Of a stretch of DNA of 64,000 nucleotides, positions 3,120 to 32,934 are shown piece by piece (within the stretch, counting starts at the first letter, position 1; every line of letters starts with the position of its first letter). The stretch covers positions 558,001 to 622,000 of the forward strand of contig NZ_CP045920.1 of NCBI RefSeq assembly GCF_009660225.1. Reading direction: 5' to 3'. The notes under the pieces are model-generated. The model searched no databases, was not told the DNA's origin, and was given only the letters and a program-made list of their open reading frames with translations. The DNA comes from Pseudactinotalea sp. HY158 (GTDB lineage Bacteria > Actinomycetota > Actinomycetes > Actinomycetales > Beutenbergiaceae). Position numbers and translations under genes: made by a program.

Positions 3120-4997
3120 ATGGCGGCTGACGGCGACGAGGACGTCGACCCCGTCACCCTGCGGGCGCAGGCGCGGGCACAGCGCCGGTCGATCGGCCGG
3201 CTCTCGTTGCTCATCCGGGCGAGCCTGCGCCTCGTGTGGGCCTCGGGCCGCGGGCTGTTCGTCGGGCTCCTGGCGCTCCAGGTCGTCGCGGCGCTCGCGC
3301 TCGCGGGCCAGGTGCTCGCGGTGCAGTCGGTGCTGGCGGCCGTGCTCGCGCTCGAGGACGCCCCGGTCGCTACGGCGTCACTGTGGGTGCCGGTGGTGCT
3401 GCTGGCCGCCCTGACCGCCGTCTCCTCGATCGTCGGCGCGGTCCAGGGGCACATGCAGCGGATGCTCGGCGAACTGGTCGCGCGCTCGATGTGGGACCGG
3501 GTCCTCGCCGTCTCGACGGGGGTCGGGCTCGCGAGCTTCGAGTCACCCGACTTCTTCAACCGGCTCCAACGGGTCCAGTCGAACGCGCTCTCGCGGCCCT
3601 ATCAGGTGACGCAGGGCCTCATCGCGATGGGGGGCGCGCTGGCCGCGGGCGTCGGCGTCGGCGCCGCACTCGTGAGCATCAGCCCGCTGCTGCTGCCGCT
3701 GCTGGTCCTCGGCGGCCTGCCGGTGCTGCTCTCGAGCCGCCGCGAGAGCCGGCTCGAGTTCGACTTCTCGGTCGCGCAGACGCCCGCCCTGCGCATGCGC
3801 CAGTACCTCACCCTCACCCAGACCGGTCGGGACGAGGCCAAGGAGGTGCGGGCCTTCCAGCTCTCGACCTGGCTCCACGGACGCTTCGCAGCGGTCTACG
3901 CCACCTATCTGGGCGACCTCGCCGCGCACCTGCGGCGCCGCGCGCGGCTCTCGGTGCTCGGAAACCTGGGCAGCGCGATCATGCTCGTGCTCACCTTCGC
4001 CGCGCTCGTGTGGATGATCCTCGCGGGGCGGGTCACCGTCGCCGGAGCCGGCGCCGCGATCGTCGCGATCAGAATGCTGGCCACCCAGGTGCAGGCGCTC
4101 TTCGCGGGGGTGCAGCGGATCTTCGAGTCCGGCCTGTTCCTCGACGACCTCGAGGGGTTCCTCCGGCTCGCCGGGCCCGCGCAGGAGGACACACGCGGGC
4201 CCGAGGCCCCGGCCGGATTCGGCCGGGTGAGCGGGGAACGGGTCGCGTTCACCTACCCGGGATCGGAGCAGCCGGCCGTCGACGGCGCCACGGTGGAGCT
4301 CCGGGCCGGCGAGATCGTGGCACTCGTGGGGGAGAACGGCTCGGGAAAGACCACCCTGGCGAAGCTCCTCGCCGGGCTGTACGAGCCGGAGGCGGGCGCG
4401 ATCCGATGGGACGGCACCGACATCCGCGAGTGGTCGCCGGCGAGCGTGCGGGCGCGGACCGCCGTCATCTTCCAGGATTTCGTGCGCTACGCGCTCAGCG
4501 CGGAGGAGAACATCGCGGCGGGCGACGTCTCGCAGCCGGCCGACCGCGCCCGGGTGGCCCGGGCGGCCCGGGCCGCCGGGGCCGCGGACGCGATCGAGGC
4601 GTTGCCCGGCGGCTACTTGACGCCGCTGTCCCGGCTGTTCGCGGGCGGCGCCGACCTCTCCGGTGGCCAGTGGCAGCGCGTGGCGATCGCCCGCGCGTAC
4701 TATCGGGACGCGCCGCTGGTCATCCTCGACGAGCCGTCGGCCGCCCTGGATCCGCGCGCCGAGCACGAGCTGTTCACGAGCCTGCGACAGACCCTCGAAG
4801 GACGGACCGCGCTCGTCATCTCGCACCGCTTCTCCACCGTGCGCAGCGCCGACCGGATCTACGTCATGGACGCGGGAGCCGTGGCGGAGCACGGCACGCA
4901 CGAGGAGCTCATGGCCGCCGGCGGCCAGTACGCCGAGCTGTTCCGGGTGCAGGCGGCCGCCTACCTGCCACCCGAGCGGAACGACGCGGCGCGCTGA
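3120..4997 (+). CDS. ABC exporter, fused permease and ATPase (peptide-exporter type)
   Basis: This is a 625-residue half-transporter: an N-terminal six-helix exporter domain (about residues 20-330) and a C-terminal ATPase. Walker A is GENGSGKTT (about 404-412), the signature LSGGQWQRVAIARA starts near 514, Walker B is LVILDEPSAALD (about 533-544), and the H-loop reads ISHRFSTVRSADRI. The Q-loop region (IFQDFVRYALSAEENI) resembles exporters of ribosomal peptides such as lanthipeptides and lasso peptides. A GGAGGAGG box sits 6 nt before the ATG. It follows the phosphoglycosyl transferase and precedes a convergent gene. It may export a glycan-locus product, or serve the lasso cluster at 28-33 kb, which has no transporter of its own. 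The cargo is inferred only. Confidence 0.85.
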   Translation: MAADGDEDVDPVTLRAQARAQRRSIGRLSLLIRASLRLVWASGRGLFVGLLALQVVAALALAGQVLAVQSVLAAVLALEDAPVATASLWVPVVLLAALTAVSSIVGAVQGHMQRMLGELVARSMWDRVLAVSTGVGLASFESPDFFNRLQRVQSNALSRPYQVTQGLIAMGGALAAGVGVGAALVSISPLLLPLLVLGGLPVLLSSRRESRLEFDFSVAQTPALRMRQYLTLTQTGRDEAKEVRAFQLSTWLHGRFAAVYATYLGDLAAHLRRRARLSVLGNLGSAIMLVLTFAALVWMILAGRVTVAGAGAAIVAIRMLATQVQALFAGVQRIFESGLFLDDLEGFLRLAGPAQEDTRGPEAPAGFGRVSGERVAFTYPGSEQPAVDGATVELRAGEIVALVGENGSGKTTLAKLLAGLYEPEAGAIRWDGTDIREWSPASVRARTAVIFQDFVRYALSAEENIAAGDVSQPADRARVARAARAAGAADAIEALPGGYLTPLSRLFAGGADLSGGQWQRVAIARAYYRDAPLVILDEPSAALDPRAEHELFTSLRQTLEGRTALVISHRFSTVRSADRIYVMDAGAVAEHGTHEELMAAGGQYAELFRVQAAAYLPPERNDAAR

Positions 4998-15208: not shown

Positions 15209-16251
15209 GAGGCCGGCTCCCGGATCGGCTCGCCCGTCTCCTGCCAGACGTTGCCCCGCCACTCGTTCCCGCGGGAGCCCGCCGCGAACCCCGCCACCGG
15301 GCCGTACCGTCCGCACGTCGGGAAGTACCTGGTCGAGAACCTGTTGTCGATGAACCGGACGTCCGCGCCGTCCGGGAAGCTCTTCGACTCCACGCTGCCG
15401 CCGTAGGCGCAGTAGGAGCCCGTCGAGGCGATCACGTTGTGTTCGACCAGCACGCCGTCGACGGGGGCGTGGTCCCCGTACATCGTGATGGCCGCCGAGC
15501 AGCCGACGTTCTCGCAGATGATGACGTTGTTCCGCAGCACGATGTGCTCGCCCCCGTGCGTGCTCACCCCGCTGCGATGGGCACCCTCCCAGGTGCGGGT
15601 GAGGAAGATATAGGAGTTCTCGACCACGACGTCGTTCGCGATCCGGATTCCGCGGCCGACATGATGGACGAGGCCGTGATCCAGGGTGAATCCGCATTCC
15701 GGGGAGTAGATGGGGATCGAATCCGCCGGGGCGCCGGAACCGTCCACCTCGACGTACTCGAGCCGTACATTCTCCGGGCACCCGCCCCCGGACTTCTCCT
15801 GCACGTAGATCATGTAGGTGCCCGTTCCGCGCACCGTGACGTCGCGAACCGTCGCGTCGTCGTGGCTGATCGTCAACCGCCCGGTGATCGTGGTCCCCTC
15901 GATCGTCTGCCCGGCGCGGTCCGTCGCCACCGGGCCCGTGCTCCGGGCCGGGTCGCTGCGCGGACCCGTCGTGCTCACGGAGGGGACGGCGGTGCCGCTC
16001 GTCGAGGCCTCGGCGCCCGGCTCGGGAGCGCTCGAGCTCGCGCCCGCGGGGCTCGGGCTCGCTCCGTCGTCCGTACTCGAGGTGCACGCGGCGAGGGTGG
16101 CCGCGAGGGCGACCAGAGCGACGACGCCCCTCGCCCCCGCCCGCGGGACGGCCCGTGGCGCCGGGCCACCCGCGCGTTCACGCCTCGCCCCCGCCCGCTC
16201 GCGTGGCGGGTGTCGGCGGCGCGGCGGGACGGTCCGCGCGCACCTCCTCAT
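15205..16251 (-). CDS. Exported beta-helix lipoprotein, paralogue of the protein at 20214-21698
   Basis: The 348-residue protein has an Arg-rich N-terminus, a hydrophobic stretch ending in lipobox LAAC (Cys56), a Ser/Pro/Gly linker and a right-handed beta-helix of about 220 residues (ITGRLTISHDDATVRDVTVRG, NNVIICENVGCSAAITMYGDHAP). That helix closely resembles the C-terminal half of the protein at 20214-21698, including paired Cys and the GPRS and CGRYGP blocks. Parallel beta-helix proteins near glycan genes are often polysaccharide lyases, hydrolases or epimerases. No catalytic residues can be named here. The ATG at 16251 lies inside the flippase gene (74-bp overlap), and its signal peptide is unusually long, so the true start could be further downstream. 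Confidence 0.7.
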   Translation of the reverse strand: MRRCARTVPPRRRHPPRERAGARRERAGGPAPRAVPRAGARGVVALVALAATLAACTSSTDDGASPSPAGASSSAPEPGAEASTSGTAVPSVSTTGPRSDPARSTGPVATDRAGQTIEGTTITGRLTISHDDATVRDVTVRGTGTYMIYVQEKSGGGCPENVRLEYVEVDGSGAPADSIPIYSPECGFTLDHGLVHHVGRGIRIANDVVVENSYIFLTRTWEGAHRSGVSTHGGEHIVLRNNVIICENVGCSAAITMYGDHAPVDGVLVEHNVIASTGSYCAYGGSVESKSFPDGADVRFIDNRFSTRYFPTCGRYGPVAGFAAGSRGNEWRGNVWQETGEPIREPAS

Positions 16252-17755
16252 CCGCGCGTCGTCGCGGACTGCGGTCGGCCCCCGGCCGCCGGCGCCACGC
16301 GCGCTGCAGCACCCCCCGCACCTCCCGGTCGAGGGCGACGAGCGTCGCCGCGGCGCACAGCAGCCCGGCCACCCCGCCTGCACCCGCCGCGGCGACCGGG
16401 GCGGCCGGGCCCACGGCGTGGACGACCGCGCCGGCGGCCACGGCGGTGCACACCGCGCTCACACCGGCCGGGACCCACGAGCGCGCGACGGTGCGCACGC
16501 GGATCCCGAGGGTCCGGGCGCTGACGATCGTGATCACCGTCGAGCTCAGCGCGGTCGCGCCGATCATGGCCAGGCACAGCGCCGTGAGCTCGTCGGGGCC
16601 GCCACCCGCGAGGAGCCACGCCCCGACGAGGGCGGCGGCCTTGATCCCGCCCGCGGACCAGAGCAGGATCGCGAGCGTGCCCGGATGGCCCCGGGCCTGG
16701 AGCGCCGGGCCGAGCAGGAGGGTCGCGGCGATGCAGAGCTGGACGAGTGCGAGCAGCTGGATCGCCCGCGCGGTGCCGTCCCACTCGGGCCCGAGGACCT
16801 GTTCGACGGCGGGGGCGACCCCCGCGACGAGGCCGAGCAGCGGAAACGCGAGCGCCGCCGTGATCCGCTGCATTCCGGACAGTCGCGTGGAGAAGGCGTC
16901 GCGGTCGTCCTGAACCTCGGCGAGGCCCGGGAGGGAGACCGACTGCATTCCCCGGGCCGTCACGTCGACCACCATGGCGGTGAGCCGCTGACCCATCCGG
17001 TACGTGCCGATCACGATGGGGCCGAAGAACGCCCCGGCGAGCACGATGTCCAGCCGGCCGCTGACGAACAGGCCGATGCTCGAGCCGGCGGACCGCATCG
17101 AGTACGAGCGGAGCTCGCGGGCCGCCACCCGGCTGAAACGCAGCCGTGGCCGCCAGGGGGAGACCCCCCACAGGGTGAGGGCCGCGACCGCCGCCATGAC
17201 CATCTGCTGCGTCACGAGCGACCACACGCCCCAGCCGAGGATCGCCGCAGCGATGCCCGCGACCCCGCCCGCGATGACCGACGCCCACGTTCGGATCGTC
17301 AGCTTCCTGAACTCGAGACTGCGACGCAGGAGGGCCTCGTGCACGACGACCGTCGAGGTGAGGGGGACGGTGAGCGCGAGCACCTGGATCACCGGCCCGA
17401 GCTCGGGCAGGCCGTTGATCTCGGCCCAGAGGGGCGCCAGCGCGATGCCCGCGGCCGTGCACACGAGGCCGAATCCGGTGACGAGCCAGAACGCCGTGTC
17501 CGCGTGCTCGTCGCGGAGGACCTTGCGGGAGATGATCGCGGGCATGAGCCCCTGCTTCTGGAGCATCTCGATGAAGTTGGTGAACACCAGGGCCATCGCG
17601 ATCACACCGAAGGCGCGCGGCCCGAGCATGGCGGCCAGCACGAGCGAGAGGCCCAGGGTGATGACCATCTTGCCCAGGGAGAGCGCATAGGACCACGTGG
17701 CCGCGGCCCGCAGGCCACCGCTCGCGGGCCGGGCCTGGGTGGCGGGTGCCCTCAT
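16178..17755 (-). CDS. Wzx-like lipid-linked oligosaccharide flippase (polysaccharide transporter family)
   Basis: The 525-residue protein has about 14 hydrophobic segments and begins with the SYALSLGKMVITLGLSLVLAAMLGPRAFGVIAMALVF pattern of the MOP/PST exporter superfamily (quoted in part: LGPRAFGVIAMALVF). It would flip undecaprenyl-linked repeat units across the membrane for the polymerase at 6275. The last 40 or so residues are a charged, Pro-rich cytoplasmic tail. The ATG at 17755 overlaps the stop of the glycosyltransferase gene by 4 nt (ATGA). The 3' end overlaps the proposed start of the beta-helix lipoprotein gene by 74 bp. Confidence 0.85.
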   Translation of the reverse strand: MRAPATQARPASGGLRAAATWSYALSLGKMVITLGLSLVLAAMLGPRAFGVIAMALVFTNFIEMLQKQGLMPAIISRKVLRDEHADTAFWLVTGFGLVCTAAGIALAPLWAEINGLPELGPVIQVLALTVPLTSTVVVHEALLRRSLEFRKLTIRTWASVIAGGVAGIAAAILGWGVWSLVTQQMVMAAVAALTLWGVSPWRPRLRFSRVAARELRSYSMRSAGSSIGLFVSGRLDIVLAGAFFGPIVIGTYRMGQRLTAMVVDVTARGMQSVSLPGLAEVQDDRDAFSTRLSGMQRITAALAFPLLGLVAGVAPAVEQVLGPEWDGTARAIQLLALVQLCIAATLLLGPALQARGHPGTLAILLWSAGGIKAAALVGAWLLAGGGPDELTALCLAMIGATALSSTVITIVSARTLGIRVRTVARSWVPAGVSAVCTAVAAGAVVHAVGPAAPVAAAGAGGVAGLLCAAATLVALDREVRGVLQRAWRRRPGADRSPRRRADEEVRADRPAAPPTPATRAGGGEA

Positions 17756-22245: not shown

Positions 22246-22355
22246 GTTGCCCCCACTGGCGATCCGACCCATGCTGCGATGTGACCCAGGTTACTCTATG
22301 AAGGTACGGCCGTGATGAGCGTGCGTCCGTGCAGCTTCCGGACGGAGGAGGGCAG

Positions 22356-23876
22356 ATGGTCGAGGATCCCGCCAATGTCGGTGACTACCTCCTGGGCACC
22401 GGGCGCGGGGACGACGTCGCGCTCATCGACCGAACGGGAGCGCACACCTACGCGGATCTTCGCCGCGCGACCGCGGCGCTCGCGGGGCATTTCGCGGGCT
22501 GGGGACTCCCCGCGGGATCGCGGATCGCCCTGCTGAGCCGGAACTCGCTCTTCTGGGCCGCGGCCTACCTCGCCATCCTGCGTTCGGGTCACGTGGCGGT
22601 GCCGCTCGCCACGGCGCTGACGGCGCGGGACGCCGTGCGCAACGCCCGATTCGTCGACTGCGCGGCCGTCGTCGTCGACTCGGCCCTCGCCGGCCGATTC
22701 GCGCCGCTGCTCCGGGTCGCCGATCACGTCGCCGACGAGCGCGCGATGACCGGCCCGGTTCCGGGTGCCGGCGGCCCCGTTCGCCAGGCGGGCACCACGG
22801 CCCCGGACAGTGACGCCGTCCTCGTCTTCACGTCGGGAACGACCGCCAGCCCGCGGGCCGTGCGGGTGAGCCATCGCAACATCCGCGCGAACACGGACTC
22901 GATCATCCGGTACCTGGAGCTGACGCGGGCGGACCGGGTCCTCGTGGTGCTGCCGTTCTCCTACTGCTACGGGGCCTCGCTGCTGCACACCCACCTGCGC
23001 GCCGGTGGCGGGCTCTCCATCTGTGACACCTTCGCCTATCCCGAGACCGTGATCGAGGCGATCGAACGCGACGGGTGCACCGGGCTCGCCGGAGTCCCGT
23101 CGACCTATCAACTGCTGTTGCGGGCCAGCTCGTTCGAGAGCACCCGGTTGCCGACGCTGCGCACCCTCCAGCAGGCCGGTGGGAGGCTGGCTCAGCCGCA
23201 GGTCGATCGGGTCGCCGCCGCCCAGCCGCAGGCGAGGCTCTTCGTCATGTACGGCCAGACCGAGGCGACCGCGCGCTTGTCCTACCTGCCGCCCGAGCTG
23301 CGGGAGGAACGGCGCGGCTCGATCGGGCGCGGAATCCCCGGGGTCTCGCTCACCGTCGTCGACCCGGACGGCCGCGAGGTCGCGCCCGGCGTCGTGGGGG
23401 AGATCGTCGCCCACGGCGAGAACATCACGAACGGCTACTGGAACGACCCCGAGGGGACCGCCGCCAGGTTCGTCGACGGCGGGCTGCGCACCGGGGATCT
23501 CGCGCACGTCGACGAGGACGGCTTCGTCTATATCGACGACCGCCAGGCCGACTTCATCAAGTCCTGGGGCTTTCGGGTCTCGACCCACGAGATCGAGGAC
23601 TCCGTGCTCACGCTCCCGGGCGTCACCGGCGCCGCGGTCGTCGGGCGCCCCGACGACGAGGCGGGCGAGGCCGTCGTCCTGTTCTACGTCACGGCGCCGG
23701 CGGGCGAGGTGACGCCCGCGCAGGTCCTCGCCCACTGCCGGACGGCGCTCGCCCGCCACCTCGTTCCCCGGGAGGCACGCCGGGTGCCGGGGCTTCCCCT
23801 GAACCAGAACGGCAAGGTCGTCAAGGCGACCCTCAAGGAGTGGGCCGCGCGCGCGGACGGCCCCGGCGGGGAGTGA
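22356..23876 (+). CDS. Class I adenylate-forming acyl ligase
   Basis: The 506-residue protein contains the AMP-binding core LVFTSGTTASPRAVRVSHRN, the YGQTEAT motif, the hinge-region TGDLAHVDEDGFVYIDDRQADFIKSWGFRVS (in part) and the C-terminal catalytic Lys in NQNGKVVKATLKEW. It would activate a carboxylic acid with ATP and transfer it to a thiol, here most likely the carrier protein coded at 21985. The ATG at 22356 is chosen because GGAGGAGG ends 5 nt before it. A GTG at 22329 would place that box inside the gene. The AcpS gene follows 4 nt after its stop. Substrate unknown; D-alanine-type and fatty-acyl-type enzymes cannot be told apart safely here. Confidence 0.85.
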   Translation: MVEDPANVGDYLLGTGRGDDVALIDRTGAHTYADLRRATAALAGHFAGWGLPAGSRIALLSRNSLFWAAAYLAILRSGHVAVPLATALTARDAVRNARFVDCAAVVVDSALAGRFAPLLRVADHVADERAMTGPVPGAGGPVRQAGTTAPDSDAVLVFTSGTTASPRAVRVSHRNIRANTDSIIRYLELTRADRVLVVLPFSYCYGASLLHTHLRAGGGLSICDTFAYPETVIEAIERDGCTGLAGVPSTYQLLLRASSFESTRLPTLRTLQQAGGRLAQPQVDRVAAAQPQARLFVMYGQTEATARLSYLPPELREERRGSIGRGIPGVSLTVVDPDGREVAPGVVGEIVAHGENITNGYWNDPEGTAARFVDGGLRTGDLAHVDEDGFVYIDDRQADFIKSWGFRVSTHEIEDSVLTLPGVTGAAVVGRPDDEAGEAVVLFYVTAPAGEVTPAQVLAHCRTALARHLVPREARRVPGLPLNQNGKVVKATLKEWAARADGPGGE

Positions 23877-23880
23877 GGCC

Positions 23881-24300
23881 GTGGACATCGTCGGCGTCGG
23901 CACGGATCTCGTGGAGGTGGCCAGGTTCGAACGGCTCCTCCGGCGGGGCGGACTGCGCTTCCTCGACCGATGGTTCCGGGCGGCCGAGATCGCGTACTGC
24001 ATCGCCCAGAGCGATCCGCACCGGCACGTCGCGGCCCGGTTCGCGGCGAAGGAGGCGGTGCTCAAGTCGCTGCGCCTGCCCCGGCCCGGCCCTGCCCGCT
24101 GGCGGGAGATCGAGGTCACCCGCGACGTCGACGGGCTGCCGGGCGTGGCGCTCCACGGATCGATGCGGGAGGCGGCCGCGGCGGCGGGCGTCGTCACGGT
24201 GCACGTCTCGCTCTCGCACAGCGGGACCTACGCGAGCGCCACGGCCACGGCCGTCGGCCGATCCGGCGGGCCCGAGCCGGCTCAGCCGCCGGGGTCGTAG
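23881..24300 (+). CDS. acpS: Holo-[acyl-carrier-protein] synthase (4'-phosphopantetheinyl transferase)
   Basis: The 139-residue protein shows AcpS motifs: VGVGTDLVEVARFERL near the start with the metal-binding Asp, RFAAKEAVLKSL with the catalytic Glu/Lys pair, and VSLSHSGTYASATA at the end. It would transfer phosphopantetheine from CoA to the carrier-protein Ser. A GTG start at 23881 follows GGGGAG at 7 nt. It sits directly behind the ligase gene and is probably dedicated to this cassette, since the general AcpS is usually coded elsewhere. Its end overlaps the convergent acyltransferase gene by 19 bp. Confidence 0.85.
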   Translation: MDIVGVGTDLVEVARFERLLRRGGLRFLDRWFRAAEIAYCIAQSDPHRHVAARFAAKEAVLKSLRLPRPGPARWREIEVTRDVDGLPGVALHGSMREAAAAAGVVTVHVSLSHSGTYASATATAVGRSGGPEPAQPPGS

Positions 24301-24920
24301 GCGTCGATGAAGCCCTGGACGTCGGTGGACATGATCCGGCCCATCGCCCCGGTGAGCCGCTCCTCGCTCCAGTCCCACCAGCGGATGCGCAGGAGGGCCG
24401 CGATCTGCTCGGGCTCGAACCTGAATCCCGCGACCCGGGCGGGATTGCCCGCCACGATCGCATACGGCGGAACGCTCTGTCGCACGACGCTTCCGGCCCC
24501 CACGACGACCCCGTCGCCCAGGGTCACGCCCGAGAGGACGATGCTCCCGTGGCCGATCCAGACGTCGTTGCCGATCGTCACGTCCCCGCGGCTCGTCGAG
24601 GTCTCGGCGGCGAGGAGCCCGGCCGGGTCGCGGAACGGCGCGTACGCCCCGAATCGATAGGTCGAGACGAAGTCCGTGCGGTGCTCGCCGCCGAGCAGCA
24701 CGTGGCAGCCGTGGGCGAACGAGCAGAACCGGCCGATCCGGAGCGTGCAGCCGGGAGTGCGGGAGGTGACGCTCAGGTGGCCCCACGAGTATCGCCCGAT
24801 CTCGTACCGGCGCAGGTCCGGGCGCAGATCGAGTCGCTCCCCGGGCGGCAGCATCCCGGTTCCGCGGCGCTCGAGACGTCGCCGAAGCCGGCCGAGGCGG
24901 GCCCGCGCGCCGGTGAGCAT
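24282..24920 (-). CDS. Hexapeptide-repeat (CatB/LbH) acyltransferase
   Basis: The 212-residue protein has left-handed beta-helix hexapeptide repeats (CTLRIGRFCSFAHGCHVLLGG, DVTIGNDVWIGHGSIVLSGV, VVVGAGSVVRQSVPPYAIVAGNPA), the pattern of the CatB xenobiotic/sugar O-acetyltransferase group. It would transfer an acyl group from acetyl-CoA, or possibly from the local carrier protein, to a sugar. The ATG at 24920 lies 2 nt after the stop of the NAD-synthetase-like gene. It is the last gene of the minus-strand operon that starts at 28095. Confidence 0.85.
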   Translation of the reverse strand: MLTGARARLGRLRRRLERRGTGMLPPGERLDLRPDLRRYEIGRYSWGHLSVTSRTPGCTLRIGRFCSFAHGCHVLLGGEHRTDFVSTYRFGAYAPFRDPAGLLAAETSTSRGDVTIGNDVWIGHGSIVLSGVTLGDGVVVGAGSVVRQSVPPYAIVAGNPARVAGFRFEPEQIAALLRIRWWDWSEERLTGAMGRIMSTDVQGFIDAYDPGG

Positions 24921-24922
24921 CG

Positions 24923-25903
24923 TCAGATCTCCGGCACGGCGCCGGCGAGCACGGGCGCCAGGTGCAGATATTCGGTCGTGCTCCGCTTCTGATCGATGTC
25001 GCGGAACACCCGGTCGACCTGGTCGAGGGTGAGCCCGGCCGCGCGGGCGACCTGCTCGCGCGGCACGGCGTTGTTCTTGCCGTACAGGCACAGGTCCATC
25101 CGGTCGTGGGGGAGGGAGAAGTAGAACTCCTCCTGGGACTGCGGCAGGGAGTAGGTGTCGGTCGTCGAGGGGCGGGTGCGGATCTCCGCGGGCACGCCGA
25201 GGTGTGCGGCGAGCGCGTAGACCTGGCACTTGTACAGGTGCGCGATCGGCTTGACGTCGGCCGCGCCGTCGCCCAGCTTGACGAAGAAGCCCTGGTCGTA
25301 CTCGAGCCGGTTCGGGGTGCCGGCGACCGCGTAGTTGAGGCGGTCGGCCCAGTGGTAGGCGAGCATCGTGCGCACGCGCTGCTTGAAGTTCGTGGCGGCG
25401 ACGATCCCCAGGTAGGCCTCGGGCGAGAGCCGGTACTGCTCCTGCCCGCCGTCGGGGTCGACCACCACGACCGAATAGAGCCGGTAGCGGTCGGAGTCGA
25501 TGACCGAGGGCAGCACGATCTTCGATCGGTAGCCGGGCCCGTAGTCCGGGCACACGAGCCGGATGGCGTCGTCCCGGCGGGCGTAGGCGCCGACCGCCTC
25601 GAGGATCGCGGTGATGTCCTCCACCTCCGAGCCGATCCCGAACGCGTCCGAGAGGCTCGTGCTGATGCGCAGGGTCTCGGGGGAGGACTCCCGCTCGGGC
25701 AGGTGGAGCCCGACGACCCGGTCCGGCCCGAGCGTCGTGGCGGCGAGCGCGGCGACCACGCTCGAGTCGATTCCGCCCGAGAGCGCGACGACGACGCCGC
25801 GTCGCCTCGTGCGTTGCAGGTAGCGCTCGAGCTGCTCGCCGATTCGCTCGGTCTCCGCCGCCGGGTCGATGTCGAGCGTCTCCCGCCCGAAGGGTGCCGC
25901 CAT
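24923..25903 (-). CDS. NAD synthetase-like ATP-pyrophosphatase
   Basis: The 326-residue protein has the PP-loop VVALSGGIDSSVVAALAA (about residues 37-54) and later NAD-synthetase-type segments (NRLEYDQGFFVKLGDGAADVKPIAHLYK, quoted in part; RPSTTDTYSLPQSQEEFYF). NadE adenylates deamido-NAD and amidates it with ammonia. Paralogues in surface-glycan loci use the same chemistry to form amide or related bonds on sugar intermediates. Co-transcription with AsnB and a hexapeptide acyltransferase fits such a role better than housekeeping NAD synthesis. No nitrilase-type glutaminase domain is attached. Substrate inferred only. Confidence 0.8.
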   Translation of the reverse strand: MAAPFGRETLDIDPAAETERIGEQLERYLQRTRRRGVVVALSGGIDSSVVAALAATTLGPDRVVGLHLPERESSPETLRISTSLSDAFGIGSEVEDITAILEAVGAYARRDDAIRLVCPDYGPGYRSKIVLPSVIDSDRYRLYSVVVVDPDGGQEQYRLSPEAYLGIVAATNFKQRVRTMLAYHWADRLNYAVAGTPNRLEYDQGFFVKLGDGAADVKPIAHLYKCQVYALAAHLGVPAEIRTRPSTTDTYSLPQSQEEFYFSLPHDRMDLCLYGKNNAVPREQVARAAGLTLDQVDRVFRDIDQKRSTTEYLHLAPVLAGAVPEI

Positions 25904-25912
25904 GTCTGTCTC

Positions 25913-27892
25913 CTACCAGGTTGTCACCAGATCGGTCACTGTCATCGGCTCGGCCGGGGCGTGGTCCGCCGGCGAGGATCCGTCGCCGTCGATGAACTGG
26001 CGATGCAGGAGCTGGGTCGAGAGCACGGCCAGGATGCGCATGTTGTCCGTGTTGCTCATCCGCACCCCGCCGGTGCGCCGGCACTTGGCGACGAGCGCGG
26101 CGACGGCCCGTGGCTGGAAGATCCCGGCGGCGGCGACGGCCTCGGGCCGGGTCGCCTCCTCGATCCAGGGCGGCGGGTCGGCGCCGAAGAAGGCGGCCGC
26201 GTCCGGCGCCCGGTACGGCTGCTTCGGGCGGGTGAGGATCTCGTCGGGGAGGAGGTCGGCGAACGCCCGCTTGAGGATGTGCTTCTCGTCGAGCCCCTGC
26301 AGCTTGTGGCGTCCCGGCAGCCGGCCGGCGAGGTCGACGACGTCGCGGTCGAGGAACGGGAAGCGCCCCTCGACCGAGTGCGCCATGAGCATCCGGTCCC
26401 CCTGGGAGGCGAGGATGTAGCCGGGCAGGAGCGTCGACATCTCCAGCCACTGCGCGCGGCTGAGCGGGTCCCAGCGGCGATGCGAGGGCGGCATGCGCTC
26501 GAGCAGCCCGGCCGTCACGTCCGACTCCCAGTCCGGGTGGGGCACGGTCATCCGCAGCAGGGCCGAGGTCGTATCCCACCGGGGCCGGTGCGAGAGCGCC
26601 GGGTCGGCGACGTCCAGGTGGCGGCCGAAGAACTCCCGGGCGAAGGCGGGCGCCGCCCCGGGGGAACGCGCCAGCCACGGGTAGAGCAGCTCGAGGCCGC
26701 GCGCGCGGATCCGCGAATCCGGATCCCGTGCCAGGAACTCGCGCAGCCGGGCCTCGCGGAAGAGGTCGTAGCCGGCGAACACCTCGTCGGCGCCCTCCCC
26801 GGTGACCACGACCTTGTAGCCGTGCTCGCGGGCGAGACCGGACAGGAGGAACATCGGCACCGGCGCGGCCCGCAGCATGGGCGCCTCTGCGTGGCGGACC
26901 ACCTCGGGGAAGGCCGCGCCGATGTCGCCGGCGCGCACCGTCACCTCGTGATGCTCGGTGCCGAGCCGGGCGGCCATGACCGACTGGAACGCACCCTCGT
27001 CGAAGTCGGCGTCGGCGAACCGCAGCGAGAACGTCTGCAGCGGCACGTCGGTGTACCGGGCGATGACGGCGGCCGTGATCGCGGAGTCGAGCCCGCCGGA
27101 GAGATAGGCGCCGACGGGCACGTCGCTGCGCAGGAACCGCAGCCGCACCGCCTCGACCACCCGGTCGCGAACGGCCGCCGTATTCTGCGTCAGGTCCTGC
27201 AGGGGCTCGGTGCCGCGCTCGGGGAAGTCGGGCTGCCAGAACGGGAAGAGCCGTTCGCCCCGCTCGTCGATGATCGCCACGTGTCCCGGCGGCAGCTGGC
27301 GGATCCCGGCGAAGACCGTCCGGGGGGCGACGGTGCTCCAGAAGGTCATCGTCTCGGCGAGTCCGACGCGGTCGAAGGCCCTCGGCAGCCGCGGATCGGC
27401 GAGGAGCGACTTCACCTCGGAGGCGAACAGCAGCCGGTGCCGGTCGCGGGTGAAGTACAGGGGCCGGACCCCGAGCCGGTCCCGGCACAGGATGAGGCGG
27501 CGGCTGCCGCGTTCCCAGATCGCCAGCGCCCACTGGCCGTTGAACCGTTCGAAGCAGTCCTCCCGCCACTGCTCCCAGGCGTGCACGATCACCTCGGTGT
27601 CACTCGCCGAGACGAATCGATGGCCGAGGCCGATCAGTTCCCGGCGCAGCTCGACGTAGTTGAAGATCTCGCCGTTGAACGTGACCCACACCGAGCCGTC
27701 CGCGTTGCCCATCGGCTGGGCGCCGCCGTCCGCGTCGATGACGGCCAGCCGCGCATGGCCGAGGGCCACGTGCTCGTCCCGGAAGAGGCCGCTACCGTCC
27801 GGGCCGCGGTGCGGCACCCGCGAGAGCATGCGGATCGCCAGGTCGAGGTCGGGGGCGCCGTCGAACGAGCGCACCCCTACGATGCCGCACAT
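25913..27892 (-). CDS. asnB: Glutamine-hydrolysing asparagine synthetase
   Basis: The 659-residue protein begins MCGIVGVRSFDG, so the Cys2 nucleophile is present. RGPDGSGLF and NGEIFNYVELR complete the glutaminase domain. The synthetase domain has YLSGGLDSAITAAVI and GEGADEVFAGYDLFREA. It can transfer glutamine-derived ammonia or another amine to an activated carboxylate. The ATG at 27892 is fixed by the need for an N-terminal Cys. It overlaps the carrier-like gene by 16 bp and is followed 9 nt later by the NAD-synthetase-like gene. In this setting amidation of a glycan or carrier-bound acid is more likely than asparagine synthesis. Confidence 0.88.
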   Translation of the reverse strand: MCGIVGVRSFDGAPDLDLAIRMLSRVPHRGPDGSGLFRDEHVALGHARLAVIDADGGAQPMGNADGSVWVTFNGEIFNYVELRRELIGLGHRFVSASDTEVIVHAWEQWREDCFERFNGQWALAIWERGSRRLILCRDRLGVRPLYFTRDRHRLLFASEVKSLLADPRLPRAFDRVGLAETMTFWSTVAPRTVFAGIRQLPPGHVAIIDERGERLFPFWQPDFPERGTEPLQDLTQNTAAVRDRVVEAVRLRFLRSDVPVGAYLSGGLDSAITAAVIARYTDVPLQTFSLRFADADFDEGAFQSVMAARLGTEHHEVTVRAGDIGAAFPEVVRHAEAPMLRAAPVPMFLLSGLAREHGYKVVVTGEGADEVFAGYDLFREARLREFLARDPDSRIRARGLELLYPWLARSPGAAPAFAREFFGRHLDVADPALSHRPRWDTTSALLRMTVPHPDWESDVTAGLLERMPPSHRRWDPLSRAQWLEMSTLLPGYILASQGDRMLMAHSVEGRFPFLDRDVVDLAGRLPGRHKLQGLDEKHILKRAFADLLPDEILTRPKQPYRAPDAAAFFGADPPPWIEEATRPEAVAAAGIFQPRAVAALVAKCRRTGGVRMSNTDNMRILAVLSTQLLHRQFIDGDGSSPADHAPAEPMTVTDLVTTW

Positions 27893-28095
27893 CGCTCCCC
27901 TCCGGCGAGGGTGCACAGGAGGGACTCGATCGCCTCCGACCGCCCGAGGTGGACGACGTCGATCGCGTCCTCGGGGAGCGTCACGCCGCAGGCGTCCTCG
28001 AGTGCGATCGCCATGCGGATCGCGTCGAGCTCGCCCGCATCCGGCCCGAGCGGGAGCGGGAGTTCGGCCAGAATCCGGCGTCGGTCGACGGTCAT
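27877..28095 (-). CDS. Acyl-carrier-like protein without the phosphopantetheine Ser
   Basis: The 72-residue protein follows the ACP helix pattern, and its second-helix region reads AGELDAIRMAIALEDACGV. In true carriers the position before Leu-Asp is Ser (DSLD); here it is Glu. It therefore probably cannot be primed by AcpS, and may act as a docking or allosteric partner, or be a relic. The ATG at 28095 follows GGGAG at about 8 nt. It is the first gene of the operon that continues with asnB. The other carrier protein of the locus (21985-22245) keeps the Ser. Confidence 0.65.
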   Translation of the reverse strand: MTVDRRRILAELPLPLGPDAGELDAIRMAIALEDACGVTLPEDAIDVVHLGRSEAIESLLCTLAGGERCAAS

Positions 28096-28426: not shown

Positions 28427-28729
28427 ATGAGGCTGCGGGTCGATGATGTCAGTTGTCGTGAGATCGACGACGAGATGGTGCTGCTCGACCTGAGGACGTC
28501 GACCTACCTCACGGCGAACCGGGTCGGCACGACGCTCCTGCGCCTGCTGGCCGAGGAGTGCTCCACGGCGGACCTGGCCGACGCGCTGGTCGCCGCGTTC
28601 GGGATCGAGCGAGCGGCCGCGCTCGCGGACACCCGCGCGTTCCTGGGGGATCTGCACCATCGCGGCCTGCTCGAGCGCGCCGAGCCCGGGATCGCCGCCG
28701 GGACGCCGGGGCATGACTCCGATCCGTGA
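28427..28729 (+). CDS. Lasso-peptide PqqD-like protein (RiPP recognition element, B1)
   Basis: The 100-residue protein has the PqqD/RRE winged-helix pattern: paired strands (VDDVSCREIDDEMVLLDLRTSTYLTAN in part), then GTTLLRLLAEECSTADLADALVAAFG and a C-terminal helix ending DLHHRGLLER. In lasso systems this protein binds the precursor's leader and brings the B2 protease to it. The ATG at 28427 follows GGGAGG at about 5 nt. An upstream in-frame extension reads as low-complexity Arg/Gly and is rejected. The B2 gene overlaps its end by 17 bp. The precursor with the matching YxxPxL leader motif lies at 31415-31555. Confidence 0.88.
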   Translation: MRLRVDDVSCREIDDEMVLLDLRTSTYLTANRVGTTLLRLLAEECSTADLADALVAAFGIERAAALADTRAFLGDLHHRGLLERAEPGIAAGTPGHDSDP

Positions 28730-29144
28730 GGTGCCCGCGGTCGCCGCGGCGCTCCTGGTCGCCTGCGCCGTCGAGGTCGCCCTGCACCTGCTGTCGTTGC
28801 CGCGCACGGCCCGCGCGGTGGGCGCCCCGCTGCGCCAGGGGGGAGGCGCCGCCCCGGCCGCCCGGGGAAACGCGCGGCTCGGCCCGCGCGGCCGCCGCCG
28901 GGTGCGAGCGGTGCGGCGCGTCATGCGGCACTGGCCGTTCGGGGACACGTGCCTGCGGCACGCGCTCGTCGCCGGCCAGCGGCTCCGCCGACTCCACCCG
29001 GAGCTCGTCGTCGGGGTGAGGAAGACCGGTGGCGTGGTGCGGGCGCACGCCTGGCTCGAGTTCGAGACCGGGCTCTACGATCCGCTCGGTGTCGCGCGGG
29101 CCTACCTGCCGCTCGAGCCGCTTCCGGGCGAGGAGGGCACGTGA
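28713..29144 (+). CDS. Lasso-peptide leader peptidase (B2, transglutaminase-like)
   Basis: The 143-residue protein has the B2 layout: a hydrophobic N-terminal helix, then WPFGDTCLRHALVAGQRLRR with the catalytic Cys, VRKTGGVVRAHAWLEF with the catalytic His, and a final Asp in YDPLGV. This is the Cys protease of lasso biosynthesis that removes the leader after a Thr at position -2. The ATG at 28713 overlaps the PqqD gene by 17 bp, indicating coupled translation. The kinase gene begins in its stop codon (TGATG, 29142-29146). All catalytic residues seem present. Confidence 0.88.
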   Translation: MTPIREVPAVAAALLVACAVEVALHLLSLPRTARAVGAPLRQGGGAAPAARGNARLGPRGRRRVRAVRRVMRHWPFGDTCLRHALVAGQRLRRLHPELVVGVRKTGGVVRAHAWLEFETGLYDPLGVARAYLPLEPLPGEEGT

Positions 29145-30247
29145 TGCGCACCGGGGCGCCGGGCCGCTCCCGGCCGACCCAGCCGACCCGGCCGACCCGG
29201 CCGACCCAGCCGACCCGAACGACCCGGCTGTACCGGCTCTACGGGCTCGTGATCGACAGCGAGATCGACCTGCACCAGGATCGGCCCGCGACGGGGCGGG
29301 CCGACCTCACGGTCCGGATCGGCGCCGCCATGACGGCGACCACCGCGCCACCGATCGGGCGCAGGCTGCTGCACCTGGAGACCGCGGAATCGGTCCTCGC
29401 CACGGCGACCACGACCGGGTCGGGCTATCACCTGCGCTTCTACGGAACGTGCGACGTCGAGATCGATCGCGCGCTGACCACGGTGGTGACGCACGCGGTG
29501 ACCGGGGCGGATCCGGACACGGTGGCCGTGCTCGTCTCGGGAACCGTGCTCTCGTTCGTGCTCGCGATGCGCCGCGAGGCGGTGCTGCACGCGAGCGCGG
29601 TCGAGGTCGAGGCCGGCGCGGTGGCGTTCGTGGGCGGGTCCGGGATGGGCAAGTCCACGATGGCGACCCTCCTGTGCGCCGCGGGCGGCCGACTCGTCAC
29701 GGACGACGTGTTGCGCGTGGACCTGCGTGGGGCCCGGCCGCGGTGCTACCTGGGCGGGACCGCACTGCGGCTGCGCAAGTCGGCCGCCGAACTCTCCGCG
29801 CTCTTCGACACGCGTCCGGCCCGCCGGGTCACGGGGGACGGGCGGGATGCGCTGACGATGGCGCCCGCCGTTCGGGAGCTGCTGCCGCTGGCCGCGATCG
29901 TCATTCCCGTGCCGCGCCACGACGCCCCCGGGAGCCGGCCCGAACTCGTGCGGCTGGACCCGGCGCGGGCGCTGCTCGCGCTGCTCCGGTTCCCGCGCAT
30001 CGTCGGTTGGGAGGATCCGGACACGCTCGATCGCCAGTTGCAGGAGCTCGGGGCGATCGTCGAGGCCGTGCCGGTTCACGTCGCCGGCCTCCCGTGGGGG
30101 CCGCCGTTCCCGGACTCGCTGGCCGCCGACGTGCTCGAGGGGGTCAGGGGCGAGGCGGAGCCGCGGGCGGGATCATCGGCAGGCCCTCCTCGTGCAGCCA
30201 GGCCATCTGCGCGAGGAAATAGCTCACCGGATGCGGCCGGTCGCTGA
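29144..30247 (+). CDS. HPr-kinase-like protein, predicted lasso-peptide kinase
   Basis: The 367-residue protein has a P-loop GGSGMGKST (about residues 164-172), preceded by VLHASAVEVEAGAVAFV and followed by the HprK-type acidic motif VTDDVLRVD (about 185-193). In the paeninodin lasso system a kinase of this family phosphorylates the precursor's C-terminal Ser, and the precursor at 31415-31555 also ends in Ser. The N-terminus carries a PTQPTR repeat not needed for the fold. An ATG in the overlap TGATG with a GAGGAGGG box upstream sets the start; a GTG one codon earlier is possible. The last 104 bp overlap the convergent cyclase gene, so the two 3' ends are read on both strands. Confidence 0.8.
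   Translation: MRTGAPGRSRPTQPTRPTRPTQPTRTTRLYRLYGLVIDSEIDLHQDRPATGRADLTVRIGAAMTATTAPPIGRRLLHLETAESVLATATTTGSGYHLRFYGTCDVEIDRALTTVVTHAVTGADPDTVAVLVSGTVLSFVLAMRREAVLHASAVEVEAGAVAFVGGSGMGKSTMATLLCAAGGRLVTDDVLRVDLRGARPRCYLGGTALRLRKSAAELSALFDTRPARRVTGDGRDALTMAPAVRELLPLAAIVIPVPRHDAPGSRPELVRLDPARALLALLRFPRIVGWEDPDTLDRQLQELGAIVEAVPVHVAGLPWGPPFPDSLAADVLEGVRGEAEPRAGSSAGPPRAARPSARGNSSPDAAGR
29174..29227 (+). repeat. 9-bp tandem repeat in the kinase gene
   Basis: Six near-identical copies of CCGACCCGG/CCGACCCAG code for Pro-Thr-Gln/Arg units at residues 11-28 of the kinase-like protein. The repeat belongs to the same class as those at 1506-1595 and 7908-7978. Confidence 0.7.
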
Positions 30248-31412
30248 GCCAGACGGCACGGAGGCGTTCCTCGTCGATGAAGTCCGGGGAGAAGGCCCCG
30301 CCCCGGAAGCCCTCGGCGAACCGGCGCTCCCGCTCGCCCCACCGGGAGGCGTTGAAGGCCGCCTTCGACCGGCGAGCGAGGATCGCATCCGGGAGCAGGT
30401 CGGCGCCGAGGAGGCGGAAGAGGTTCGTCCGGCCCCGGAAGCCCCAGCCGCCCCCGGCGCGTGCGAGCGCGGCGACCACGGGGGCCTCGGCGATCGGATG
30501 CCGCAGGGTGAGCCCGTACTCGGCGGCGCTCGCGGTGGCGTTGTCCAGGCCGAGCCTCGTCGCGCGCCGGGAGTAGATCGCCCAGGTGGCCTCGTCCCAG
30601 CGCAGCGGGCCTCGTTCCGCCGCCTCGTCCCGGGCGAGGATGTCCCGTGCCGCCGGTCGCAGCCACCCGAGCGCGGCGGGGTCGGCGAACCTGCGCCGCG
30701 ACTGCCGCCGCGCGACGACGGCCGGGCTCAGCGCCGCGGCCGCCGCCCGCACGAGCGCCCCGCTGGGGCGGCGACGCCGGCCGAGGAGCAGGTACAGGGG
30801 CGTGATCCGGCGTCCCTCGATGAACGCGTCACCGCCCTCGCCGGTGAGCACGGTCCCGGGGTCGAGCTGGTCGAAGAAGAGTGGTTGGGTATGAACGGCC
30901 TCCGGCCAGACGAGCCCGCGCCGGCGCAGGTGTCGGGTCGCCAGGTCGCCCAGCGTGGACCGCTCATGGGTGACCGGCACGACGATCCGCTCGGTGAGAC
31001 CGAGGTGGCCGAGCACCAGGTCCTGCCATGCGGACTCGTCGGCCCGCGCGTCCCCCGGATACACGGCCGTGACCGGCACCGGATCCGGGACCCCGAGCGC
31101 GCGGGCAGCCCGGGTCGCCAGAGCGAGCACGAGGGAGGAGTCCCTCCCCCCGGAGAACAGCACGTAGCACGGGCCGTCGGCCACCGCTTCGCGGGCGGCG
31201 TGGTCCAGGGCGTCGCGGACCGTTCCGCCGTCTCGGACCGTTCTGCCGTCTCGGACCGTTCGACCGGGGACCACCGCCTCCCACGGCACGGGCATCGCCC
31301 CCAACGGCGCGCCGACGTCGAGCTCGCGGCCCGCGAGCCGCTCATACGTCGCGGCACGGTCGCGACGCGACGCCGCGTCCCGATCACGATCGGCACGCGG
31401 CGTCGTGGCCAC
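30144..31412 (-). CDS. Lasso-peptide cyclase (C), asparagine-synthetase-like, short form
   Basis: The protein (about 422 aa) has the ATP-pyrophosphatase loop CYVLFSGGRDSSLVLAL, then ESAWQDLVLGHLGL and GEGGDAFIEGRRITPLYLLLG, as in AsnB-like cyclases that adenylate an Asp/Glu side chain for macrolactam formation. The N-terminal region before the PP-loop is only about 85 residues, so the full glutaminase-like domain of most lasso C proteins is missing. The GTG at 31412 lies 2 nt behind the precursor's stop. A GTG at 31454 inside the precursor gene is also possible. The start is therefore uncertain, but translational coupling with the precursor is clear. A TVRDG repeat lies in the N-terminal region. 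Confidence 0.82.
   Translation of the reverse strand: MATTPRADRDRDAASRRDRAATYERLAGRELDVGAPLGAMPVPWEAVVPGRTVRDGRTVRDGGTVRDALDHAAREAVADGPCYVLFSGGRDSSLVLALATRAARALGVPDPVPVTAVYPGDARADESAWQDLVLGHLGLTERIVVPVTHERSTLGDLATRHLRRRGLVWPEAVHTQPLFFDQLDPGTVLTGEGGDAFIEGRRITPLYLLLGRRRRPSGALVRAAAAALSPAVVARRQSRRRFADPAALGWLRPAARDILARDEAAERGPLRWDEATWAIYSRRATRLGLDNATASAAEYGLTLRHPIAEAPVVAALARAGGGWGFRGRTNLFRLLGADLLPDAILARRSKAAFNASRWGERERRFAEGFRGGAFSPDFIDEERLRAVWLSDRPHPVSYFLAQMAWLHEEGLPMIPPAAPPRP
31216..31266 (-). repeat. 18-bp tandem repeat in the cyclase gene
   Basis: Three imperfect 18-bp copies (TCTCGGACCGTTCTGCCG and variants on the + strand) code for GRTVRDGRTVRDGGTVRD-like residues just before the PP-loop domain. 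The repeat replaces part of the region where other cyclases have a glutaminase-like domain. Confidence 0.65.
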
Positions 31413-31414
31413 GG

Positions 31415-31555
31415 TCAGCTGAACGTGCCCGGTGCAGGCACCGTCCACTTCCACAGCCGGATCTCGTCCGACCAGTCCTGCAGGTTGTGACCACCGAGGG
31501 TCATCTCGCGCACGCTGCCGACTTCGGTCAGCTTCGGTGCTTCGTAGTCATTCAC
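31415..31555 (-). CDS. Lasso-peptide precursor (A), 46 residues
   Basis: Minus-strand translation from a GTG at 31555 gives a leader of about 20 residues (MNDYEAPKLTEVGSVREMTL) and a core beginning at Gly21 with Gly22, His23, Asn24, Leu25, Gln26, Asp27, Trp28, Ser29 and Asp30, and ending in PAPGTFS. The leader has the lasso signature YxxPxL (residues 4-9), Gly13 and Thr19, the -2 Thr. With Gly21 as residue 1, Asp27 would close a 7-residue ring; with Gly22, Asp30 would close a 9-residue ring. The core has three Trp and a C-terminal Ser, a predicted target of the neighbouring kinase. An AGGAAGG box lies about 7 nt upstream. The cyclase gene follows 2 nt after the stop. Confidence 0.9.
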   Translation of the reverse strand: MNDYEAPKLTEVGSVREMTLGGHNLQDWSDEIRLWKWTVPAPGTFS

Positions 31556-31630
31556 GTCGTTCCCTTCCTTCTTCTCGTGCGAGGGACGCGCTGCCGCGCC
31601 TCATCGGATGGATTCCCAGGCGATCGACTC

Positions 31631-31725
31631 AGCCTAGGAGGCGGCCTGCTCCCGTGTTCGGGCGAAGCCGGATTCTCCGCGGGTGAATCGTGGGTGCGCG
31701 GGCGAGTGGCGGGGGGTGAGCAGGG
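31631..31725 (-). promoter_or_regulatory. Promoter and 11-bp repeat array of the lasso precursor gene
   Basis: GGGTG cores (CACCC on the gene strand) start at 31681, 31692 and 31714, all in one 11-bp register with 31703 missing. The first reads GATTCACCCGC on the gene strand. A TAGGCT hexamer at 31631-31636 is a plausible -10, followed by about 75 bp of leader to the GTG at 31555. The match in spacing and core to the array at 28280-28328 suggests that one regulator drives both halves of the lasso cluster. The 212-bp gap holds no other gene. Confidence 0.55.
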
Positions 31726-31767
31726 TGAGGTCGTTGGGCCCGCTGTGTCCTCCGGGTCCGCAGCCGG

Positions 31768-32934
31768 CTACGACGACCGGATCGCGCCCTCGACCCGGTC
31801 GAGATAGACGCCGAGGGCGCGCTGGCCGGCCACGACGCGATCGGCCCGGCCGGACCGGGCGGCCTGGGCGGCCCGGTCCCGCTGCAGCACGTGGCGGGCC
31901 ACGCCCCGGGAGGCGGCCAGCGCCGTGCGGGCCGCCCCCGGCTGCGCGGCCCGGGCCACGAGCCGGGCGATGCCGGGCTCGGACCGGGCGCCCGGCACGG
32001 GGGCGATGCGGTCGACCGCACCTGTCAGAGCCCGGAACGCCGGGGAGGACCCGAGGAGGCGGTCGAGGCCGATGGGCAGATCGCCCCCCAGGCCGGACCG
32101 GGCGCGTCGCAGCACGAGCGAGACGTGCGGGGCGGCCTTCCACGCGGCCGCCCGCCGGGCCACCTCGGCCCAGTCCGTGACCCGTGCGGCACTGCGTTGG
32201 GCGTCCACGAGGTAGAGCAGCCTGTTGGCGCCCGTGAGCGCGGCGTGCAGGCAGACGTGGATGAGCGTGTCCGCGGGGTCGAGGGTCCACCCGGGCACGA
32301 ACCCGAGCCGGATCGGTACCCGCCGCTCGAGGATCCGGGCGGTCGGCACGTCGAGCCGCCGCCGCCGGCCGGCCGTGTTGATCATCGACCAGTGCAGGTC
32401 CATGAGTGCCCCGGACGGGCTCCGCCAGTGCATCTCGCCGGGGACGTCGGGATTGCCGAGCATGTCGTCGAAGTCGGCGATCGTCCACCCCGCCTCGAGC
32501 AGCCGCGCGCTCGCCGTCCGCAGGTCGCCCGGGGCCACGAGGAGGTCGAGGTCCCCGTAGCTGCGCAGGCCGGCCACGGGGTGGGCGACCTCGGAGAGCA
32601 CCGGCCCCTTGAACACGACCCACGGGAGGTCCTCGAACAGGTCGCCGAGCGCCCCGACGAGGGTCGTCATGTGCAGGTGGGTCGCCCGCGCCCGGTCCCG
32701 GTCGTCCTCGACGAGCCGCGCCAGGTCCCCGGCCGTCTCGCGCAGCAGCGTGTGCGCCAGCGGGGCCAGGCGGTGGTAGCGGACGGCGCCCGCGAACGCC
32801 TCGGGGCGGGCCCGCACCGACGGCGCGATCACCGGGGTCTCGCCCCGTGCGATCTGCACGAGCGCGTGCGAGAGGGCGGAGCGGGCTCGGCGCCGCGGGG
32901 GGCGGTCCGTGACCGTGCTGCGAGCTGACACCAT
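31768..32934 (-). CDS. Nucleotidyltransferase-like protein of the lasso cluster (PF14907 type)
   Basis: The protein (388 aa) has the pattern of the uncharacterised nucleotidyltransferase family found in RiPP clusters: WVVFKGPVLSEVAHP, then LRSYGDLDLLVAPGDL with the metal-binding Asp pair (about residues 121-123), and MDLHWSMINTAGRR with a third acidic residue. Such proteins sit beside HprK-like kinases and AsnB-like cyclases and may transfer a nucleotidyl or other phosphate-containing group to the peptide, but no reaction is proven. The start is uncertain: GGGAGGA abuts the ATG at 32934, suits the GTG at 32931 better, and a GTG at 32952 has no ribosome-binding site. It lies upstream of the precursor gene on the same strand. 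Confidence 0.72.
   Translation of the reverse strand: MVSARSTVTDRPPRRRARSALSHALVQIARGETPVIAPSVRARPEAFAGAVRYHRLAPLAHTLLRETAGDLARLVEDDRDRARATHLHMTTLVGALGDLFEDLPWVVFKGPVLSEVAHPVAGLRSYGDLDLLVAPGDLRTASARLLEAGWTIADFDDMLGNPDVPGEMHWRSPSGALMDLHWSMINTAGRRRRLDVPTARILERRVPIRLGFVPGWTLDPADTLIHVCLHAALTGANRLLYLVDAQRSAARVTDWAEVARRAAAWKAAPHVSLVLRRARSGLGGDLPIGLDRLLGSSPAFRALTGAVDRIAPVPGARSEPGIARLVARAAQPGAARTALAASRGVARHVLQRDRAAQAARSGRADRVVAGQRALGVYLDRVEGAIRSS

Follow-up and report, generated by a model that had tools for sequence, protein, structure and literature searches.

Which residues close the ring of a predicted lasso peptide whose core has no acidic residue at position 8 or 9, and what becomes of the serine at which that core ends? 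The question is raised by a gene cluster in a 64,000-nucleotide stretch of Pseudactinotalea sp. HY158 (Beutenbergiaceae; contig NZ_CP045920.1, positions 558,001 to 622,000), hereafter the window, from the first letter of which all coordinates are counted. The cluster is almost certainly, by its sequence, a class II (cysteine-free) lasso peptide cluster with a split B protein, and its core has Asp at positions 7 and 10 and Glu at position 11. Comparison with related loci leads us to favour, with modest confidence, a ten-residue macrolactam ring between Gly1 and Asp10 in this peptide. Considering the gene set, the catalytic motifs, the leader register, the conserved terminal Ser and the Gly1/Asp10 pattern, all of which can be read directly, the cluster as a whole is likely to combine the class II lasso pathway with C-terminal phosphorylation and, probably, sugar addition. 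The product is thus probably a new member of the phosphorylated, and probably phosphoglycosylated, lasso peptides.

The cluster and its relatives

The cluster is divided between the two strands. On the plus strand, one tightly packed operon encodes B1 (28427..28729), a PqqD-type leader-binding protein (RRE; PqqD PF05402, 55 bits), the leader peptidase B2 (28713..29144) and the HprK-like peptide kinase K (29144..30247), with overlaps of 17 bases between B1 and B2 and one base between B2 and K. The minus strand carries the precursor gene A (31415..31555), the short lasso cyclase C (30144..31412; 422 aa; Asn_synthase PF00733, 67.8 bits), which starts 2 bases past the stop of A, and N (31768..32934), the counterpart of PsmN of pseudomycoidin. 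The initial annotation had predicted a lasso cluster with these parts, and all six genes were found where it placed them; the peptidase it had recognized by Cys, His and Asp scores 54.8 bits against the lasso_biosyn_B2 model (cut-off 33), and its nucleotidyltransferase-like protein belongs to PF14907 (118 bits). B1 scores 52.4 bits against lasso_PqqD_Strm, under the cut-off of 70 for that model. The Cys, His and Asp residues are retained in 35 of 36 aligned B2 proteins, the one from the window included (L084, one of the related loci, which are designated here by L numbers, has Thr for Asp), and the YxDxDxxV motif of N is present in most aligned relatives. The genome, 3.65 Mb on one contig, contains a single lasso B2, a single kinase of this kind and a single match to cyclase C at E 0.001.

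Precursor A comprises 46 residues, with a GTG start preceded by AAGGAAGGG, the leader MNDYEAPKLTEVGSVREMTL and the core GGHNLQDWSDEIRLWKWTVPAPGTFS. It matches the NCBIfam model lasso_leader_L3 with 30.8 bits (cut-off 19) and is the sole match to a strict leader pattern in the window. It has the YxxPxL leader and the Thr at position −2 of a class II lasso precursor, and the YxxPxL motif, Gly13 and Thr19 had all been read correctly by the initial annotation. Homologues of A with 83% identity occupy the same place in L012 and L013. The computed mass of the cyclized core Gly21-Ser46 (minus water) is 2978.446 Da, or 3058.413 Da with phosphate, in agreement with the earlier hand calculation of about 2978.4 and 3058.4 Da; by analogy with pseudomycoidin, one hexose may add another 162 Da, for a computed 3220.465 Da with phosphate. 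A core starting at Gly22 would have a mass of 2921.425 Da.

Cyclase C was found in eight of 24 searched genomes of the family, including that of HY158, and A, B1, B2, K, C and N occur together in all seven others. Of 396 genomes from the order, 16 have a match to the kinase query, as do 24 of 394 from the class (own genome counted). The named relatives with both kinase and cyclase are the Pseudonocardiaceae Actinophytocola xanthii and Prauserella muralis; a search for related loci gave three, of which L011 has no kinase match and is not counted. Because the same six-gene set recurs in relatives, the cluster is not a chance assembly. Decay of the cluster into a non-functional remnant is very improbable, given that the catalytic motifs are all intact and that the gene set and the terminal Ser are kept in several genera.

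For the kinase-linked set, we inspected 39 sequences, 38 of which have a kinase match (window counted). Precursors numbered 47 in 35 of them, and the later addition of L166 and L167 brings the number to 49. No precursor was recognized in L085, L086 or L087, also on re-inspection, and spurious precursor matches in L014, L016, L071 and L074 were excluded. L168 ends in Ser but was left out of the Ser count, as neither a kinase nor B1 or B2 could be detected within 17 kb of it. As controls, we used 40 loci found with the B2 model, which yielded 22 precursors from 19 loci without a kinase match; from the remaining 21 came no precursor or only implausible ones (L121, the second of L122, L143, L144, L145 and L151), and among them L148 and L149 hold distant kinase-like matches. 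The four weakest kinase matches are those of L174-L177.

Ring size and the short cyclase

Core positions were numbered by anchoring the Tyr of YxxPxL at −17, the place given for it in the leader description of PMC10368454. In this register, Thr is found at −2 in all 47 kinase-linked precursors. Outside the group that includes the window, 38 of 39 kinase-linked precursors carry an acidic residue at core position 9 (the exception being L081), and 20 of the 22 control precursors have one at position 8 or 9; the remaining two, L122 and L124, may not be ordinary lasso precursors. Ten precursors from nine clusters (window, L012, L013, L039, L042, L043 with two, L044, L166 and L167) have no acidic residue at 8 or 9. 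Among their core positions 1-12, only Gly1 and Asp10 are invariant, the pattern expected if these two residues are joined, and Asp10 is the sole acid within the first 13 core residues of L039, L042, L043, L044 and L166. The Fisher value for this analysis of core positions is 2e-12, relatedness being ignored. The predicted ring of the window's peptide spans Gly21 to Asp30 of the precursor (31466..31495, minus strand).

The cyclases are partitioned in the same way. In a tree of 37 rows (rooted for drawing only; L082_0, a truncated frame, was excluded for length), the nine cyclases of the Asp10 group lie on one side of a single branch with support of 98/97, recovered in 96% of 200 bootstrap trees. 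Their hosts span two families, and L014-L018, the other members of the window's family, are placed elsewhere. The pattern was first seen in seven cyclases; L166 and L167 were found later, and both conform. L166 shares its genus with four of the earlier members, and L167 is the stronger test since it represents a new genus, with 61% cyclase identity and a core that differs strongly. The genome of L167 also contains L168, which does not belong to the Asp10 group and has Asp9.

Two other ring closures would preserve more familiar dimensions. A seven-residue ring between Gly1 and Asp7, as in huascopeptin, is conceivable, seven-residue rings being known (PMC13352647), and position 7 is indeed acidic in four precursors, with Asp in three (window, L012, L013) and Glu in L167. 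In the other six of the ten, however, Pro or Ala stands there, L167 exchanges Asp for Glu, the only acid common to all ten is Asp10, and the other kinase-linked precursors have their acid at 9. We thus regard this ring as unlikely. Slightly less probable again is a leader cut one residue later, which would leave Thr at −3 and give a nine-residue ring Gly22-Asp30. Position 2 in the window is also Gly, and a spacing of nine is usual among kinase-linked precursors, but position 2 varies freely over the group (Gly, Lys, Arg, Ser or Leu, with Lys or Arg in five of ten), which argues against a core start there, whereas position 1 is Gly in ten of ten and Thr sits at −2 in all 47 precursors read in this register. 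Neither alternative explains the whole Asp10 group.

Several observations weigh against the favoured reading as a whole. In the sub-branch of the window, position 7 is acidic in four of four precursors (Asp, Asp, Asp, Glu), so that its peptides may have rings of seven; L081 lacks an acid at each of positions 8 to 10; many rows are close relatives and not all independent; and L039 has no B2 match of its own, one being present in the neighbouring cluster L038 of the same genome. Weighing these points, we lean slightly towards the existence of a natural group of cyclases that would close ten-residue Gly1-Asp10 rings on C-terminally phosphorylated, possibly glycosylated peptides, using enzymes devoid of the usual N-terminal domain.

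This last feature concerns the whole kinase-linked set. About 86 residues precede the SGGRDS motif in the window's C, which has no typical long (glutaminase-like) N-terminal region before SGGxDS. In the kinase-linked loci, the first possible start lies no more than 127 residues ahead of SGGRDS in 32 of 35 rows; the other three (the second locus of L010, L037 and L041) have long upstream open frames and give upper bounds only. In L166-L168, the distance is 111-132 residues, counted to the upstream stop. Among the controls, 214-330 residues precede the motif in the 22 rows judged to be lasso cyclases, out of 29 listed. The rows set aside were an additional one from each of L118, L121, L130 and L137, which had other motifs or almost nothing downstream, those of L122 and L143, and that of L127, with a VSGGTDS motif, nothing upstream and 517 residues downstream. 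By these counts, the kinase-linked cyclases are without the long N-terminal region that makes up the glutaminase domain of asparagine synthetases. A wrong start as the source of the short C was considered and rejected: only 2 bases separate the end of A from C, and in relatives, too, A is found a short way upstream. AlphaFold models of K and C, built from alignments of 3 and 4 rows (pLDDT 63 and 57, respectively) and used for fold only, are weak; in that of C, residues 1-62 have no confident fold and the remainder resembles asparagine and beta-lactam synthetases. A sequence search of the PDB returned no match for C or N, and among open-licence papers we found none on lasso cyclases that mentions a glutaminase domain.

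The size of its ring is among the features that define the lasso fold. Structurally characterized rings comprise 7, 8 or 9 residues, and fusilassin tolerates engineered rings of 7 to 10, according to the ring-size part of a 2026 review (PMC13352647); a ten-residue ring is mentioned as an in vitro analogue in the corresponding lines of a 2021 review (PMC8498205). The fusilassin/fuscanodin variants described in these parts of the two reviews thus share the ten-residue macrolactam but are engineered, the native ring being nine. No native ten-residue lasso ring was found in the open-licence literature searched. If the Gly1-Asp10 ring is true, seven to nine residues would be no limit of the native machinery, the group would offer cyclases suited to larger rings for engineering, and comparison of the Asp9 and Asp10 groups could locate the cyclase residues that measure ring size.

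Two further kinds of core were observed among the kinase-linked precursors. L037, L040 and L041 combine Glu at core position 1 with Asp9; either their N-terminal residue is unusual or the leader is cut at a shifted place, leaving a ring of eight. The L081 precursor has two Cys, Glu7 and a Ser end, and no cyclase match was obtained in the stretch examined.

The kinase, the terminal serine and probable sugar addition

K scores 26.3 bits for HPr kinase, below the cut-offs of 33.3 (Pfam) and 240 (TIGR00679); on its sequence, it is HprK-like and fails as a canonical HPr kinase/phosphatase. Its catalytic residues are in place, including His149, the GGSGMGKST loop (GxSGxGKST) and Asp187-Asp188, and the resulting H-K-D-D motif is matched in 35 of 35 kinase loci and also in L166 and L167. 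The model of K resembles phosphoenolpyruvate carboxykinases (PEPCK) and HprK in Foldseek, and a sequence search of the PDB gave only weak P-loop matches. Hence, the HprK-like kinase of the initial annotation is borne out by motif and, in a weak model, by fold, but not by the curated HPr kinase thresholds. Similarity to most relatives stops near residue 335-345, and the last ~100 bases of the gene overlap the 3′ end of C.

Comparison of precursors in relatives, which the initial annotation had proposed as a check, gave a clear result: Ser is the last residue in 43 of the 49 kinase-linked precursors, and the other six close with Gly-Ser-Arg (GSR), versus none of the 22 control precursors with either ending. 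Forty-four of the 49 differ from one another, and their cores range from 20 to 35 residues with highly variable sequence, so that the constancy of the terminal Ser points to selection by the kinase. A terminal Ser by chance is rejected by the control set. On this conservation, K very likely phosphorylates Ser46 (codon 31418..31420, minus strand). The rule is claimed solely for kinases at least ~38% identical to the window's K. The phosphorylated lasso peptide of the initial annotation is well supported as far as the terminal Ser is concerned; with N present, phosphate plus hexose is the better model, and an ordinary ring is doubtful. The ring-closing acid, the short cyclase and the distant candidate exporter come in addition to what that annotation described.

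Several findings weigh against this assignment of K and its target. K lies far under the curated HPr kinase cut-offs. The six loci with distant HprK-like proteins (27-34% identity; L148, L149 and L174-L177) have no YxxPxL precursor and no match to the window's cyclase, and the last residue of the short WxAP peptides of L175 and L176 is Tyr, Val or Pro; these six loci look like another system. BsfK, another lasso kinase, phosphorylates core Ser3 of a precursor that ends in Asp, as the section on this kinase in PMC10368454 reports, so that a kinase by itself is no proof of the site. Finally, the GSR endings, in which Ser is not terminal, belong to six members of the Asp10 group (L039, L042, both of L043, L044 and L166).

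As side observations, these GSR ends would need trimming by a carboxypeptidase or a relaxed kinase. The WSAP/WQAP peptides (L175, 6853-6972; L176, 8355-8627) lie beside distant HprK-like, PqqD-like and N-like genes, again with no match to the window's cyclase, and are perhaps precursors of a different kinase-bearing peptide system.

Among characterized systems, the closest is pseudomycoidin (psm, Bacillus pseudomycoides), with which the window shares a kinase for the C-terminal Ser and an N of the nucleotidyltransferase family. Pseudomycoidin is from a firmicute, and the window differs from it by the short cyclase, Asp10 and gene order, a comparison made through the descriptions in the reviews PMC9266682 and PMC8498205 and not by sequence. 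The account of these enzymes in PMC9266682 states that lasso kinases phosphorylate the C-terminal Ser and that the phosphorylated Ser receives one or two hexoses only if PsmN is present, leaving open whether PsmN is itself the glycosyltransferase. Each of the nine Asp10-group clusters has an N homologue adjoining A, and in L069 an N homologue adjoins the ABC transporter. Since N stands beside the core genes, pseudomycoidin, with phosphate and hexose, is the better model, and by this analogy it is reasonably probable that N acts on the phosphorylated Ser. Paeninodin (pade, Paenibacillus dendritiformis) shares the H-K-D-D kinase and a Ser-ended precursor; unlike the window, it is presented without an N in the paeninodin passages of PMC9266682 and PMC8498205, the comparison being by description only. 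BsfA/BsfK of Bradymonas sediminis, following the same section of PMC10368454, shares an HprK-like lasso kinase helped by B1 and a YxxPxL leader but differs in the phosphorylated Ser3, Ile at −2 and the C-terminal Asp. The Ser-ended precursors would extend phosphorylated lasso peptides, which the reviews describe for Firmicutes and Proteobacteria, to another bacterial group, the named members of the present set being actinobacteria.

A pathway consistent with these comparisons can be proposed. B1 would bind the leader at Tyr −17, Pro −14 and Leu −12 and present the precursor; K would phosphorylate Ser46 while the precursor is still linear; and B2 would cleave the leader after Leu20. C would then activate Asp30 (core Asp10) with ATP and couple it to the amino group of Gly21, closing the ten-residue ring around the tail. 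The phosphate would then receive at least one sugar through N, and export of the product would fall to an ABC transporter.

Transporter and genomic surroundings

A candidate exporter, the ABC transporter D (3120..4997, plus strand), lies 24 kb away and shares 47% identity with the ABC gene that adjoins the L009 kinase cluster. A D-like transporter is present in eight of eight lasso-bearing genomes of the family and in one of the 16 others. The pyruvyltransferase of the surrounding polysaccharide region has the same distribution, which shows only that the region is inherited as a block; co-occurrence being non-specific, D was rejected as a proven exporter.

The polysaccharide locus surrounds the cluster (1398-38000) and encodes a sugar transferase, an ABC transporter, a Wzy-like protein, the pyruvyltransferase, an FrhB-like protein, glycosyltransferases, a flippase, UDP-glucose dehydrogenase and dTDP-rhamnose genes. 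This setting, with its pyruvyltransferase, Wzy-like, flippase and dTDP-rhamnose genes and the tight association of the pyruvyltransferase with cluster-bearing genomes, could suggest that K and N act elsewhere than on the terminal Ser, or that the cluster serves the polysaccharide locus, the peptide being anchored to a glycan via phosphate; the Ser3 modification by BsfK is in line with the former. Yet the flanks differ in the three loci checked outside the family (rpoA near L043; phoH and uppS near L167; cysQ/D/N near L069), and cores such as that of L037 have no Ser except the last residue, rendering this alternative quite improbable next to phosphorylation of Ser46. A functional tie between the lasso cluster and the polysaccharide locus was accordingly rejected, being seen inside the family and not in those three outside loci; a link of lasso peptides to exopolysaccharide was not found in the open-licence papers searched.

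Beside the lasso cluster, window positions 22329-28095 encode an AMP-binding enzyme, an acetyltransferase, a protein of the NAD synthase family, an asparagine synthase and a small protein that appears acyl-carrier-like by eye; the last four are kept in L012 and were not seen in L013. At 13328-16087, frames conflict: a frame of 919 residues with an asparagine synthase fragment runs into a beta-helix protein at 15205-16383. In L069, homologues of an inositol phosphatase (cysQ-like), cysD and cysN are found immediately upstream of B1, a possible sign of sulfation, and a CysD-like motif is also found at L070, L071, L074-L076 and L078-L080.

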